Shown piece after piece: positions 2,123 to 36,200 of a DNA stretch of 64,000 nt. The notes below the pieces were generated by a model. The model was not told the origin of the DNA. It worked only from the letters and a program-made list of their open reading frames with translations, and ran no database searches. The stretch's first letter is position 1. Each line of letters opens with the position of its first letter. Source of the stretch: Rhizophagus irregularis (Eukaryota > Glomeromycota > Glomeromycetes > Glomerales > Glomeraceae); assembly GCF_026210795.1 (NCBI RefSeq), contig NC_089455.1:1-64000 (forward strand), in the 5' to 3' direction. The position numbers were made by a program, and so were the translations under genes.

Positions 2123-2755
2123 CATATTTGGTGATTATAAAGAGATGTGACTATATAAAAAATTTCTTATATTTGTATATCATAATTCCAGCCAAAAATT
2201 AACATAATTTTAGCCAGAATTATACTTAAAACTTTATTGTATCGTAACTTCACCAATATTAATCGATCATACCGCCATTCGATTCATCATGATGAGACGG
2301 TTCTAATGGTATAAAATACATCAAAATCCAATCACTATATTAATTTCCAAAATTTAAAAAATATTAATAGTTTTTGTGTAATAACTCTGCCAAAATTGAT
2401 CCTAGAAAGACGATCTTACTACCATTCGATTCGTCTTGATGAGACGAATCTAATGGTATAAGATACATCAAAATCCAATCACTAGATCAATTTCCAAAAT
2501 TAAAAAATATTAAATGGTTTTTAAGCAATAACTCCGTCAATATTGATCACAGAGAGATGAGCTTACCACCATTCGATTTGTCTCGATGAGGCGATTCCAA
2601 CGAGATACAAATCGTCTTTTTACAATCACTAGGTACTGAGAAATCTAGCAAAATGTTAAATGGCGCAGTAAACGTAAATCAAGAAATATTATAATGCCGA
2701 TGTTTAACATTTTGTTGAATAACTCATCAGCCAGTGATCGGAAAAGGATAAAACT
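2123..2755 (+). repeat. MITE1, left part (Tc1/mariner/pogo-like non-autonomous element)
   Basis: This stretch is collinear with 15767-16410 of the intact copy at 15729-16689, from catatttggtgattataaag onwards. The first 38 bases, including the terminal inverted repeat, are missing where the minus-strand LINE begins. At 2740-2755 the element breaks off at ggaaaaggataaaact, and the same word resumes at 10556-10571, so the plus-strand LINE sits inside the MITE. It contains imperfect direct repeats, each holding a short hairpin around ATTCGTCT-TGATG-AGACG. It has no coding capacity that I can support. Confidence 0.85.
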
Positions 2756-10851: not shown

Positions 10852-11124
10852 TAATAGGAAATTTGAAAAACAGATAAATATTTATGTACTATCCAAGATT
10901 GCGAGACACATTGGAATAGTTCCTATTTTGCATGGAAGAGATTATTACTTCTTCAAAATGCAATTAATATTCTTAATGCAAAATTGACAAGCAAAACAGA
11001 TAGCAACTCAAAGAAAAATTCTAAACAGCTAAAAGAAATAATGATAACTACTGAAGAGTGGGATTTATTGCAAAATTTAGTTGATGTATTGGAACAATTT
11101 GCAGAAGCAACTGATTATTTAGGA

Positions 11125-13635
11125 GTGGAGGTGTGCTCTGGTGAAATCCGTTCAATCTGTCATCCGATCCGATCAAAAAATGGATCATCTGGATTAAGAA
11201 TGAACGGATTGCGGATAATCCGGATGGATCTGTTGGATAACATCGGATTGATTGGATGTTACACGGATGACCGGATTGACCAGATTGATCAGATAATCTG
11301 GTCAAATTCATAACTTTTTTTTTTTTTTAACATAAATGTTTTTTTTTTAAAAAAAACACCTTTTTTTCTTTAGGACGGACTTGGACTTGGACTTCGGAAC
11401 GACTTGGACGGCTTGAATTTCGAAAAGTAAGTGTAAATTTCTTTTTCTTTTGTCTTGGGAACATCACTAAACGTTCCTTTACTTCATTTCTTTAGGGGAC
11501 GTCTGCCTGGAACTCAATTTTGGCTTGGGCTATAAAGGTAAGTTGGGGGAGGGTAATTTTGATTTTTTGTTTGTTTTTGGGAACGTCATTAACGTTCTTT
11601 TTGCTTTTTTTCTTTAGGGGACGCCCTCCCGGATTTGGATTTTATAAAGGTAAGTTGGGGAGGGTATTTTCAGGTTTTTTTTTGTCTTTGGGAACGTCAT
11701 TAACGTTCCTTTTGCTTTTTTTCTTTAGGAGACACCCTCCCGGATTTGAATTTCATAAAGGTAAGTTGGGGGAGGATATTTTCAGGTTTTTTTTTGTCTT
11801 TGGGAACGTCATTAACGTTCCTTTTGCTTTTTTTCTTTAGGTGACGCCCTTCCTAAACCTGGATTTCGGTTTGGGCTATTAAAGTAAGTTGGGGAAATTA
11901 ATTTTTGTTTTTTTTTTGTCTTTAGGAACGTCATTAACGTTCCTTTTGCTTCTTTTCTTTAGGTGATGCCCTTCCTAACCTGGATTTCGGCTTGGGCTAT
12001 TAAAGTAAGTTGGGGTTATTTTTGGGTTTTTTTTTGTCTTTGGGAACGTAATTAACGTTCCTTTTGCTTCTTTTCTTTAGGTGACGCCCTTCCTGGATCT
12101 GGATTTCGGCTTGGGCTATTAAAGTAAGTTGAGGAAGGGTGTTTTGCTTATTTTTTTTTAGGAACGTCATTAACGTTCCTTTTGCTTCTTTTCTTTAGGT
12201 GACGCCCTTCCTGGACCTGGATTTCGGCTTAGGCTATTAAAGTAAGTTGGGGAGGGTGTTTTATCTTTTTTTTTTGTCTTTAGGAACGTCATTAACGTTC
12301 CTTTTGCTTCTTTCCTTTAGGTGACGCCCTTCCTGGATCTGGATTTCGGCTTGGGCTATTAAAGTAAGTTGAGGGAGGGTGTTTTGCTTATTTTTTTTTT
12401 AGGAACGTCATTAACGTTCCTTTTGCTTCTTTTCTTTAGGTGACGCCATTCCTAACCTGGATTTCGGCTTGGACTATTAAAGTAAGTTGGGGAGGTTATT
12501 TTTGGGTTTTTTTTGTCTTTGAGAACGTAATTAACGTTCCTTTTGCTTCTTTTCTTTAGGTGACGCCCTTCCTGGATCTGGATTTCGGCTTGGGCTATTA
12601 AAGTAAGTTGAGGGAGGGTGTTTTGCTTATTTTTTTTAGGAACGTCATTAACGTTCCTTTTGCTTCTTTTCTTTAGGTGACGCCCTTCCTAACCTGGATT
12701 TCGGCTTGGGCTATTAAAGTAAGTTGGGGAGGTTATTTTTGAGTTTTTTTTTGTCTTTGGGAACGTAATTAACGTTCCTTTTGCTTCTTTTCTTTAGGTG
12801 ACGCCCTTCCTGGACCTGGATTTTGGCTTGGGCTATTAAAGTAAGTTGGGGAGGGTGTTTTATCTTTTTTTTTTGTCTTTAGGAACGTCATTAACGTTCC
12901 TTTTGCTTCTTTTCTTTAGGAGTCGCCCTCCCGGATTTGGATTTCATAAAGGTAAGTTGGGGAGGTTATTTTTGAGTTTTTTTGTCTTTGGGAACGTAAT
13001 TAACGTTCCTTTTGCTTCTTTTCTTTAGGTGACGCCCTTCCTGGACCTGGATTTCGGCTTGGGCTATTAAAGTAAGTTGGGGAAGGGTTTTTTCTCTTTT
13101 TTTTTGTCTTTAGGAACGTAACTAACGTTCCTTTTGCTTTTTCTTTAGGAGGACGCCTCTTGGACCTGGATTTCGGCATGGGTTATAAAGGTAAGTTGGG
13201 GGAAAGGTATTTTTGTTTTTTTGTTTTTAGGAACGTAATTAATGTTCCTTTTGCTTTTTTTTTTAGGGAGACATCTTCTTGGACCTCTAAATCTTAAACT
13301 TTTTATAAATATTGTATCAACTAATTTGTTAAAAATCATTTGTAATAACGTAAAAATAAATACTATGTTTATTATTATAAAATTTCTAATTGTTAATTAA
13401 TATTAATAAAAAGTATTAAGTAGAAAAAACTGAATTCGGATTCACCGGATTCACCAGATTGACCGGATTATTCAGATATCCGGTCAACCATCCGGTCAAA
13501 TTGGTGAGCAAGTATTGACCGGATATCCAATGATCCATCCGGTCAATCCAATGAATCATCCGGATCAATCCGAATCCGGTCAAATTTTAGATGGATGACC
13601 GGATATCCGGATTGATCGGATTCAGAGCATACCTC
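11125..13635. mobile_element. Non-autonomous TIR element carrying an intron-like tandem array
   Basis: The element lies between two copies of tatttagga (11116-11124 and 13636-13644). Its ends are inverted repeats: gaggtgtgctctg at 11128-11140 and, reading inward from the right end, gaggtatgctctg at 13623-13635 (12 of 13 equal). Three extra bases (gtg) precede the left repeat. Both subterminal regions (11150-11300 and 13435-13620) are packed with ATCCGGAT/GACCGGAT/ATCCGGTCA words in both orientations, as expected for transposase binding sites. No transposase is encoded. A 9-bp duplication suggests a Mutator-like origin; 8 bp (atttagga) plus a chance match would suit hAT. The middle is filled by the tandem array annotated separately. 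Confidence 0.82.
11380..13275 (+). repeat. Tandem array of about 16 exon/intron-like units (array 1)
   Basis: Each unit of about 110-123 bp contains GTAAGT(T), a T-rich stretch, the hairpin ggaacgtcattaacgttcc or a close variant, ttttgcttcttttctttAG, and then a 32-43 nt block such as gtgacgcccttcctgg…ggcttgggctattaaa. Hairpins start near 11457, 11579, 11691, 11803, 11925, 12043, 12161, 12282, 12400, 12521, 12638, 12758, 12880, 12990, 13110 and 13228. Intron-like segments measured are 69, 80, 79, 80, 79 and 76 nt (11427-11495, 11538-11617, 11650-11728, 11761-11840, 11884-11962, 12005-12080). The exon-like blocks between them are 42, 32, 32, 43, 42 and 43 nt. Block lengths are not held to multiples of three and the longer block has TAA in one frame, so coding is not supported. 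No known family name can be given. Confidence 0.85.
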
Positions 13636-14457
13636 TATTTAGGAAGCAGTACTTATTGTACATATAGTATTATAAATCCATTTATTGAGGAAATTAAAGA
13701 AGATTTATTAAATCCTTTCCTATCATCACTTTCTCTATCCTCTATACAATTTTCTCCACAATCTTTTTCACAATCTGTTTTACAAGAAACACAAGAAACA
13801 GATGAAGATATATTTATTGAAGAAAATATAGAGATTGAAACTAATTTAAATCAACCTGTAAATACGTCTGGCTTGTTAAAGATGGTTAGGACAAAACTTT
13901 ATAAAAATTTGTGTAAATATTGGAATTTTCAAGATTCCAATGCTCTTTTAGCTTCTCTATTAGATCCATGTACAAAAAATCTTAAACATGTATCTATTCA
14001 AATTAAAATTAAAACAGAAGATTTATTGCGTAGTAAAGTTGAAAAATTAAAACTAAAAGAAGTAGATAGTAGTAAATTAGCATCTTCTAATTCTTTTAAT
14101 TCAACATCAAAAAACTTGAAATATAAGAATTCAATTTTTTCTAGATTTCAAAAAGCTAAAACAAGAATTGTAAATGATGAACTTTTAGAATATTTGAGAT
14201 TGGACAAAATTGACTGGAAGGAAAATCCTTTTGCTTGGTGGGAATGTCAAGAAAAGCACTTTCACTATTTAAGTATATTAGCACGTAAATATTTACCTAT
14301 ACCTGCATCATCAACTGCATCAGAAAGAATATTTTCAGATGCTAGTAATATTATGGGACCAAAGAGAGTAAACATGAATCCTGAATTATTCAAAAAAATC
14401 ATTTTTTTAAAGCGTAACTCCAAAATGATACCTTCAATTCATCCACCTAAACAGTAA

Positions 14458-15728: not shown

Positions 15729-16689
15729 CAGTCAACTCTCTTTATAGTCACACATTTGGGACAGTCCATATTTGGTGATTATAAAGAGATGTGACTATAT
15801 AAAAAATTTCTTATATTAGTATATCATAATTCCGGCCAAAAATTAATATAATTTTAGCCAAAATTATACTCAAAACTTTATTGTATCGTAGCTCCGCCAA
15901 TATTAATAGTAGAGAGATGATCTTACCGCCATTCGATTCGTCTTGATGAGACGGTTCTAATGGTATAAAATACATCAAAATCCAATCACTAGATTAATTT
16001 CCGAAATTAAAAAAATATTAATGGTTTTTGTGTAATAACTCTGCCAATATTGATCCTAGAGAGTCAATCTTACTACCATTCGATTCGTCTTAATGCGACG
16101 AATCTAATGGTATAAAATACATCGAAATCCAATCACTAGATCAATTTCCGAAATTAAAAAATATTAAATGGTTTTTAAGTAGTAACTCCGTCAATATTGA
16201 TCACAGAGAGATGAGCTTACCACCATTCGATTCGTCTCGATGAGGCGATTCCAACGAGCTATAAATCGTCTTTTTACAATCACTAGGTACCGAGAAATTT
16301 AGCAAAATGTTAAATGGCGCAGTAAACGTAAATCAAGAAATATAATAATGCCGATGCTTAACATTTTGTTTAATAACTCATCAGCCAGTGATCGCAAAAG
16401 GATAAAACTACCACCATTCGATTCATCTCAGTGAGACGATTCTAACAAGCTATGATACATCTTTGTACGATTATTAGATGCCAAGTTATTTAATATATTC
16501 TTTATATAACTGTGATTATAAACGGTTCTTTTTAATATAAGATTTTTGAGGATAGGTGTGATAGTGACTATAGATAGATTGTGACTATATAGGATAGTTT
16601 TTAATAATAAAGTGTTTTGAACATTCAACTGGTGTGACTATATAGTAGAATGTGACTATAACGGGAGTGACTATAGAGGGAGTTGACTG
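15729..16689. mobile_element. MITE2, intact 961-bp element with TA target duplication
   Basis: The ends are CAGTCAACTCTCTTTATAGT (15729) and its near inverse ACTATAGAGGGAGTTGACTG (to 16689), flanked by TA at 15727-15728 and 16690-16691. CAGT termini and a TA duplication are typical of the Tc1/mariner/pogo superfamily. Inside are four imperfect direct repeats (starting near 15927, 16073, 16219 and 16410), each with the box ACCATTCGATTCGTCT…AGACG that folds into a small hairpin, followed in the first three by a stretch ending CAATCACTAGAT or similar. Subterminal gtgactat repeats lie near both ends. No transposase is present. It is the reference for reading the broken copy at 2123-2755 plus 10556-10851. 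Confidence 0.88.
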
Positions 16690-33262: not shown

Positions 33263-36200
33263 TCATGGATTTGGTTCCCCTTTTAAATCATTATTTTCTT
33301 CCTCATTCCCTGTTTTTATCTTCTTCATTTTCTGATCATCCACATTTTTTCTTTCCTCGGTCTTTGTCTTTTGCTCATCCGTAACATTAATCTCCGTTTT
33401 CTGTTCATCCACATTTTTAACGTCCGTTTCTTCCATATTTTTTCTTTCCTCGGTCTTCGTCTTTTGCTCATCCGTAACATTAATCTCCGTTTTCTGTTCA
33501 TCCGCATTTTCAATATCCGTTTCTTCTATATTTTTTCTTTCCTCGGTCTTCGTATTTTGCTCATCCGTAACATTAATCTCCGTATTCTGTTCATCCACAT
33601 TTTTAATGTCCGTTTCTTGTTCTTCTATATTTTTTTTCTTGGTCCTTTTTTCTTCGTACCAATGAGTTTCTGTCTTCTTTTCAAACTTGTCATAGTAATA
33701 TTTATCAAATGGTTTATCCAGTGGGCGTTCTCTGATTTCACCATCCTTAACTTTATATTTTGCTGTGGGATCCTTATTAATCGAATAAGAATCGATAAAT
33801 AAACATCCGGCCTCATCTTTACGCGGCAATCTGATTGTCCCTCTAGCAAATGGGGTATTACTATCAACATCATCTAAACCCGGCCCATTCTGGTTTGGAT
33901 CAAATACCGGATCTTTATAAAGTTCCACGTTAAATTCACGTCCTTCTTGAAAGAAGAATGAACTTCCATGTTTCTTGATTTCTGGAAATGGTTGCATTGT
34001 ATATTCATAATAATCAGTAATGTGAAGAATAGCTCCTTTTTCTCTCTGGCTTTGTGTTAAAATGCCTTGAGTGAGTTTTAGTTCAACACAATCGGCTGAA
34101 AGTTGAATAGATGGATATTTGAGGAGTATGTGGTCAATATGCAATTGTTGTTCTGTACCATAAATATAAAATGGCATACGATCTCTTGGATAGTTAGCAT
34201 CTTGGAATACTGTGGCCAGATGCCGCTTCTTTAGCACTTTAACGCCAGTTACTTTAAATTTTTCAATAAAGGAAATGGGTTGACTGGAAAACAAAGAAAT
34301 TTCAATTAAAAAAGTAATATTAAGAGAAAAACAAATATTGTATTTTAAGTTACACATACTCATTCGAATCAAATCCTTTGTAGATAACTCCTTCAAAAGA
34401 ATTTTCATTACATACAATTTCTTCTAGTGTCATTTTATTTTTATTACCAAGGAAGTACACACGTGATGGATGTTTTATGCGAGCTTTCTTATAATCCTCC
34501 TTTATATTTTGTGGCAGTTCTGCTGTGAATATCACCTGCTGACGGTGGTTTTCCATTTGGAACATTGGCAAATGCGTGAAATAAAGTTTATCGGTACCTT
34601 GTATCACAAACGCATGATAGTCTGGTTCAATCGTATTACGAAAAACTAAAAGCTATAGTGTATTTATTAGCGCATCATATGTATAAAAAATATAAAATAT
34701 CGTTATTTACAATTACATGCTAACCAAAAGTTTTATCTTATATTTAACGATGCTATTAAAAATGAACGTAATTGTATAAATATTAAAGGTCAAAATTACC
34801 TTAGCAAGATCCTGTAATGTGCTTTGAAACTTTTTCATTAGTTCATTGAGGAAATCAAATTCGGTGACCCAAGGTGACATAACAACGTTAATTAATACAT
34901 AGAGGTCCTGGTCGCCTTTTAGGCCAAGACGATTCTTGAAATTTTTCAGGCAATTACCATAATTTTCCTTCTTGAATTTTGTTGAAGTCAAAATTAAAAA
35001 TTTTTTCTCATTTGTGTCCTTGGAACTAGTAAGTGAAAATTCTTCATATAAACGTTGGTTGAGGTAATTTGCTTCATTAATATCTTCGTTCAATTTAAGG
35101 ACCTCCTCGCTGTTTTCTTTAACCTTCAACTTAAAGTTACATGCGAAGGTATTAACCATGAGATCAGATCCAAGTTTCTTTATAAGTTCCTTGGCAGGAT
35201 CACACTCTATAATCTCATGATTTGATTTCTCAACAATTAATGTACGGATAAGATGTTTTTCTTCTTTTATTTTTTCTAGATTTGGTAGAAAACAATTTTC
35301 AGTAGGTAGCATGTTAAATGGAGTAACAATAAAGTTATCATCATCGGTTGACATGGTGGCCCAATGACAATAAAGCTATATAATAAATAAGGGAAAAAAC
35401 TTTAATATATTCGATTTAATGTAAAAGCATTATAATATAATAGTCACCTTTATGCTAGAAAAAGTCGCCTGTCCCAACAATAATCCATAACCTTTCTGAT
35501 GGAGGCCAATTATATCATGAGAAAGCCAAGTAGCTACTGCAGCTGCAGCTGATTTGCTAAATAGATAGATTAAGAACATAAAGACATACATTATTATAAA
35601 AAAAAAAAGAGATAATAATCATGGTTTCGTCCTTAATACTCACCTCCCCTCCACACCGTAAATGCCAATACTTTCTTCTTCATTAGGCCGAACTATAACC
35701 GGACTCTTCCATGTGTTTAAATATCTCATATGTCGATTACGATAACATAAACTACCAGCTGGGTAAGGAACGTAACCGCTCTTGTGAGGGTCAACAGTGA
35801 CAGAGTCGCAATATTTCAAACTTTCTAGATGTTTTTCGGTATAAGGCTTAAGTGCCAGCATAGGTACGAATGAATCACGACTTTCTTCATGGCCCTCTAA
35901 ACGATCGCCAGATTTCGAGCCAATAGGTGGTTTTACAAGCATAGAACGGAAATATCCACCCCATGCAGCATCTGCATGAATGACGAAACTGAGTCCATAA
36001 CGTTCATACTTTTTTCGAAGCTTTATAATATCATCCAAAGGATCACAGGCACCATGTTCTGTTGATCCTATAATTGCTACAACAGCATAGATAGCTTGTT
36101 TATCTTTGACACATTTTTCAAGAAACTTTTCAAGTTTCTTCAAATTCATGCGTGCATCATTGTCTACAGGTACCGGTATCAGATTTCTTGAACCAATTCC

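Follow-up and report, generated by a model that had tools for sequence, protein, structure and literature searches.

What kind of genetic unit places intron after intron side by side, each with complete-looking splice signals and with only a few dozen nucleotides between one and the next? Such an array lies in the window, by which we mean the whole stretch of DNA analysed here, 64,000 nucleotides of Rhizophagus irregularis (NCBI RefSeq assembly GCF_026210795.1, contig NC_089455.1, positions 1 to 64,000 of the forward strand). A sequence-only reading of the locus had described about 16 fungal introns with consensus signals and had proposed for them, among other things, a satellite of intron-exon cassettes or a multi-intron non-coding transcript. 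Here, we examine the array in the window, its copies elsewhere in the genome, its gene models and its longer relatives.

The array is the body of a transposon

We found 16 intron-like blocks of 69-80 nt, each of the form GTAAGT...TTTAG, that alternate with 17 exon-like blocks. The first exon opens the array at 11374, and the last acceptor closes it at 13266. The introns are present in the number expected, with blocks of 32-53 nt between them, and the junctions that had been predicted at 11537|11618, 11649|11729 and 11760|11841 are all exact. The features are, in window positions:

11118..11125, no strand: left copy of the target-site duplication, TTTAGGAG, with 7/8 bases as in the right copy
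11126..13637, + strand: whole non-autonomous hAT-type element, TGGAGGTGTGCTC...GAGCATACCTCTA, from end alignment with other copies and genome-wide relatives
11126..11314, no strand: left end and CCGGAT-rich subterminal region, from an alignment of 15 copies
11315..11373, + strand: T-rich tract closing in the first 3' splice site, TTTCTTTAG
11374..11426, + strand: exon 1, 53 nt
11427..13266, + strand: 16 introns and the 15 mini-exons between them
Introns 1-6, + strand: 11427-11495, 11538-11617, 11650-11728, 11761-11840, 11884-11962, 12005-12080
Introns 7-12, + strand: 12124-12198, 12242-12320, 12364-12439, 12482-12559, 12603-12676, 12719-12797
Introns 13-16, + strand: 12841-12919, 12952-13028, 13072-13148, 13191-13266
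12283..12301, + strand: example of the palindrome, GGAACGTCATTAACGTTCC, holding the branch-point word TTAAC (fold z -2.76 for its intron; variants in other introns)
13267..13433, + strand: terminal exon plus 3' region; AATAAA occurs at 13355 and 13405
13434..13637, no strand: right CCGGAT-rich subterminal region and right end
13638..13645, no strand: right copy of the target-site duplication, TTTAGGAA
13646..14457, + strand: 3' portion of the hAT transposase gene into which the element is inserted (frame 13591-14457 matches Pfam Dimer_Tnp_hAT, E=1e-14)

The exons measure 53, 42, 32, 32, 43, 42, 43, 43, 43, 42, 43, 42, 43, 32, 43 and 42 nt, followed by the terminal exon. The 16 GTAAGT words stand in register, with donor-to-donor distances (n=15) of 111-123 nt, and TRF describes the array as 15.5 copies of period 122. 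The spliceosomal layout of donor and acceptor is present in 16/16 window introns, branch words being counted across units; since copies of one array are not independent, the question whether the pattern exceeds chance was decided not on this 16/16 but on the constraint seen between loci and on the two other arrays described below. Inside the introns, a GGAACGT-CATTA-ACGTTCC palindrome, which may be perfect or altered, is followed by a T-rich tract and TTTAG, and the branch-point word TTAAC belongs to its 3' half. Acceptors (17) outnumber donors (16) by one: the opening acceptor ends at 11373, the closing one at 13266, and no donor was identified upstream of the first acceptor within the element. 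A further eight TTTAGG-type words lie in the array beyond the 17 used as acceptors. In R. irregularis, the enriched poly(A) signal is AAUAAA, found at 56.7% of sites according to the cited part of PMC10234402. When spliced, the window copy has stops in each of the three frames, and a protein-coding array is thereby ruled out for this copy; the idea of a multi-intron non-coding transcript fits it in this respect, while the transcript itself is one that we infer. Searches of the window returned no Rfam family at gathering thresholds and no tRNA.

Is such a layout common by chance? A scan for chains of at least four introns with short exons gave 22 chains in 265,803 bases, all of them in arrays of the family or in a second array (L053), and 0 chains on the same bases reversed. 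The scan recovered 15/16 window introns; it did not detect the arrays of L045, L046, L048, L050 and L051, nor, in L049, the third array.

The satellite of intron-exon cassettes gave way to a transposon: the array fills the body of a 2.5 kb hAT-type element with ends and target duplications, and satellite DNA, in the sense of a tandem array without transposon-end bounds, was rejected since such ends bound the array. The ends of the family have the form TAGAGG...CCTCTA, with CCGGAT-rich stretches just inside both of them and with short terminal inverted repeats TAGAGGTGTGCTC / GAGCATACCTCTA, which we take to be of hAT-like type. The window element is inserted inside another hAT gene, whose upstream part was identified by eye only. 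An 8-bp target duplication, with both ends compared by eye, is exact in 8/15 copies, agrees at 7 of 8 bases in 4/15 and is absent from 3/15 (L031, where the right end is cut, L035 and L043), so that 12/15 copies have a duplication of at least 7/8 bases. The array has many relatives in the genome. Among the best candidates scored, the genome has at least 41 matches to the left end and at least 58 to the right, partial and inverted pieces counted; paired by eye, these give at least about 25 sites close to the window's ends and about 10 more distant ones. Within the window's subfamily, the mean end divergence among 12 copies is 5.7% on the left and 4.3% on the right. Based on the ends, the target duplications and the family present in the sequence, the window element is almost certainly a non-autonomous hAT-type DNA transposon of Rhizophagus irregularis.

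Other repeats were seen along the way. A 147-bp tandem unit, in closely similar form, occupies window positions 2264-2594 and 15888-16251, 13.6 kb apart, and a 93-bp repeat (three copies, 93% matches) lies at 33339-33618 inside open frames of both strands. Arrays of the family also carry insertions of a further short inverted-repeat element, AAGGTTGCTTGCC...AAGCAACCTT, in L042 from 3048 (reverse complement) and in L052 from 4481.

Core splice bases are constrained across copies

We compared 291 units from 23 stretches, namely the subset of 330 profile hits in which the whole unit is covered, and counted changes by parsimony on a tree. L045/L046 and L047/L048 are probably two parts of one element each, which gives about 21 elements; further array places such as C4, C9, C17, C19, C22 and C24, as well as units decayed beyond the profile, lie outside the set, and script coordinates for L031, L035-L037, L041-L043 and L050 refer to the reverse complement. 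The donor GT is intact in 284/291 units, the branch TAA in 285/288 and the acceptor AG in 270/290; no other GT word of the unit is intact in more than 270/291, except the GT inside GTAAGT (281/291). Variant donor words are mostly GTAAAT, GTATGT or GTGAGT (20/29).

Splice words that mutate as often as their neighbours had been named as the pattern to look for against the intron interpretation, and the opposite was observed: across copies, they changed less than base-matched sites. The core positions (donor GT, branch A and acceptor AG) account for 16 changes, against a mean of 52.9 at base-matched sites outside CpG, and 0/20,000 random base-matched sets were as low. The deficit is found on internal branches (2 vs 22.3 matched) and on terminal branches (14 vs 30.6), with an internal:terminal ratio of 2:14 at core sites against 291:391 at other sites (p=0.012). 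Most of this signal comes from G sites: a single change was counted at the donor G, eight at the acceptor G (all on terminal branches) and eight at the donor +5 G, while comparison G sites outside CpG (n=21) changed 7-27 times each, with a mean of 15.8. The base that follows the branch A, a C within a CpG, changed 25 times, mostly to T.

As read from these copies, the pattern at the core is that of sites which matter during the spread of the element and less in fixed copies; the deficit on terminal branches exceeds what strict neutrality after insertion would produce. From this constraint, together with the gene models below, from which splicing is deduced, we consider it probable that the array introns are splice-competent and under constraint.

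Gene models join the predicted exons

Protein searches returned 18 annotated proteins, 17 from R. irregularis and 1 from R. diaphanus, and all 18 hold words that span joins of array exons, from 6 (P0007) to 30 (P0005) as counted with permissive splice rules and without a control. Exact spliced mapping was obtained for 5/18 proteins, from which P0002 was excluded for implausible far exons. In the four others (P0001, P0003, P0006 and P0011), 14/17 donors and 18/19 acceptors inside the element are those predicted, with zero-length exons merged, and several of the joins skip units. For P0001, P0006 and P0011, the model starts in sequence beyond the element and continues by joins into the array, P0006 and P0011 representing one locus, and P0004 holds a peptide read from the flank that adjoins the element in L051.

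These models are predictions, not RNA reads. We take the OCT59 tags to be those of the BRAKER/Nanopore annotation. As described in the cited sections, the BRAKER annotation was refined with Nanopore data and used RNA-seq hints (PMC10234402), and the RIR_jg models were made by AUGUSTUS with RNA-seq intron hints, those with expression, homology or motif support being submitted as standard genes (PMC6123716). A search with one junction word of the commonest join, at up to one mismatch, found no spliced retrocopy.

Longer relatives carry the array ahead of a transposase

L051 and L052 (about 6 kb) have ends in common with the window family and hAT transposase frames on one strand, which are broken in places and were analysed unrepaired. 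The transposase assignment of these end-sharing relatives comes from L052, with Dimer_Tnp_hAT at E=2.8e-10 and DUF659 at 1.5e-6, below the cut-off; in L051, the Dimer_Tnp_hAT match (0.002) is weak and below the curated cut-off. Their arrays lie at both ends and point inward, with 10 and 10 unit hits per strand in L051 and 9 and 3 in L052, and the right array lies ahead of the transposase, on the transposase strand. The window copy and L031-L050 (21 stretches) have units on one strand only, with 0 opposite hits. Across copies, the number of introns ranges from several to about two dozen.

Did the array ever encode protein? Seven exons of one array in L051, picked by pattern, measure 33, 42, 33, 42, 42, 41 and 43 nt. 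When these seven are joined, one of the frames has no stop in six of them. The view that the array is not protein-coding is right for the window copy; judged by this open frame, a coding ancestry of the array is possible. By eye, a stretch resembling a hAT C-terminus was also seen inside one array exon each of L042 and L044; perhaps it was left behind when a deletion gave rise to the non-autonomous form.

Two further arrays and the folding of introns

Counted by strand, the genome contains 425 matches to the palindrome pattern (246+179, with some sites matching on both strands), and the reversed control gives 0. Matches also lie outside the listed places of the family, including isolated ones, and IMG/VR gave 0 matches to the palindrome GGAACGTNATTAACGTTCC.

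Two other arrays were found. L053 1-881 (G000:C2:3660680-3661560) is a second array of intron-exon cassettes, with units of about 135 bp and exons unlike those of the window; it has 7 donors (6 GTAAGT, 1 GTAAAT) and the palindrome GGGAACGTAATTAACGTTCCC, plus TTTTTTTAG. Around the L053 donors, exon end and intron start can pair, as seen by eye. The third array belongs to a nested element at about 200-4000 of L049 (G000:C30), whose ends resemble CATCAGCAAGTTT (by eye) and whose introns have hairpins both at the donor and at the branch point. Among the L049 donor hairpins of equal length (4/7), 4/13 pairs change on both sides, and the covariation is 0.449 vs 0.236 when shuffled, with 0/500 shuffles as high. 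From 969 to about 2378, L049 contains an intron-like stretch of about 1.4 kb in which related palindromes follow each other with neither GTAAGT nor TTTAGG between them, which makes a DNA-binding role possible.

Both arrays share their design with the array in the window: GTAAGT, a branch point in a hairpin, a T-run and TAG. The mean fold z of introns, which were taken by pattern, is -4.5 in L053 (n=5), -3.0 in L049 (n=7, including two doubtful ones with z -1.34 and +1.77) and -1.76 in the window (n=16); with flank controls at a mean of -0.48 (sd 1.94, 40 pieces), the fold of the window introns is weak. In the palindrome of the window family, compensatory change was not found beyond chance.

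Discussion

Which account best joins a transposon, constrained splice bases and an array that opens with an acceptor? We favour, with a probability of roughly 0.6, a hAT-type transposon whose splice-competent multi-intron body derives from an inward-facing leader and acts acceptor-first. The ancestor would have had a multi-intron leader facing inward, like the right array ahead of the transposase in L051 and L052; an internal deletion would have removed the transposase, and unequal exchange would have let the array grow. RNA that enters on the left side, whether out of a host gene or at the edge of the element, would be spliced into the first acceptor, the 16 introns would be removed and polyadenylation would follow AATAAA, giving a multi-exon, mostly non-coding transcript that is sometimes joined to host exons. 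Taken together, the origin as an inward leader and the action as an acceptor-first multi-intron unit have, in our estimate, about even odds. The least certain step is what the element gains; we speculate that it could be intron-dependent expression or export of its RNA or, as a second guess, a softening of insertions into genes.

The nearest rival overlaps this account and differs from it in what is selected. The element, with acceptor first and AATAAA last, could be a 3' terminal-exon trap that captures host transcripts, as the 17 acceptors vs 16 donors, the models of P0001, P0006 and P0011 that start outside and join into the array, and the flank-derived peptide of P0004 at L051 would suggest. 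However, gene finders may invent start exons, two of the three models describe one locus and trapping may be a by-product, and we regard capture as the selected function as possible but distinctly less probable than the multi-intron account. The palindromes might instead be subterminal repeats that bind the hAT transposase or a host factor, with the symmetry supplied by inverted arrays and the splice words carried as passengers. Such binding is in line with the 425 strand matches against none in the control, the inversion of arrays at the two ends of L051 and L052, and the L049 stretch from 969 to about 2372 where palindromes repeat without GTAAGT or TTTAGG. Yet it leaves unexplained why the donor GT and the acceptor AG, which lie outside the palindrome, are constrained and why the order donor, palindrome, acceptor is kept in two other arrays, and the units of the window copy and L031-L050 all lie on one strand; we therefore hold it to be unlikely.

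Slightly more doubtful still is a relic, in which a captured piece of an intron-bearing gene was amplified as a minisatellite and its inherited splice signals no longer matter. The frame open through six of the seven exons picked in L051, the hAT C-terminus-like stretch (by eye) in one exon of L042 and of L044 and the mutated splice words of some units would all agree with it, but the changes at core splice bases amount to less than one third of those at matched bases, and this deficit is strongest on internal branches. That an ordinary T-rich satellite acquired splice-like words by chance is highly improbable: T-rich units do make TTTAGG-type words common, as the eight besides the 17 used attest, but the ends with their target duplications, the constraint, the other arrays and the control of the chain scan all speak against it.

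Beyond the multi-intron transposon itself, we propose more tentatively, and with less than even odds, a recurrent mobile module of structured introns and mini-exons in arbuscular-mycorrhizal fungi. It would occur in three or more repeat families within a single genome, with branch-point hairpins, joined in one family by donor hairpins, kept by compensatory change, and would be acceptor-first, poly(A)-last and spliced as a unit; through intron number, the element might gain expression of its RNA or capture of host transcripts. If spliced, the arrays offer natural experiments on intron number, on very short exons and on branch points bound in hairpins, and would give rise to chimeric transcripts in a plant symbiont of major importance. 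The arrays also account for a number of short 'hypothetical proteins' in Rhizophagus databases that resemble spliced transposon arrays rather than genes. Long-read RNA data for R. irregularis DAOM197198 already exist, as the cited part of PMC10234402 reports.

How does the element compare with known systems? With non-autonomous, MITE-like hAT elements it has in common the TAGAGG-type ends, the 8-bp target duplication and longer relatives with a hAT transposase, but it differs in its body, which is built from arrayed cassettes of an intron and a mini-exon. We know of no hAT element with such a body, and our literature searches, judged from their listings, found no intron-array element of this kind. 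Foldback-type elements (Drosophila FB, Galileo) carry tandem repeats in long inverted ends. L051 and L052, with their tandem arrays inverted at both ends, may be akin to them; here, however, the repeat unit is an intron plus an exon, and the window copy has one array and no unit on the opposite strand. Fungal introners, or introner-like elements, are near-identical introns in many copies, some with hairpins. The likeness to the present introns lies in exactly these properties, whereas here the introns stand side by side inside a transposon. Ds exonization and gene-fragment transposons such as Tgm-Express reportedly involve few splice sites or captured gene pieces, in contrast to the up to two dozen regular cassettes found here. 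What they share with the array, as far as the cited parts of these reports describe it (PMC5432752, PMC1947982), are splice sites that are borne by a transposon and join other transcripts.
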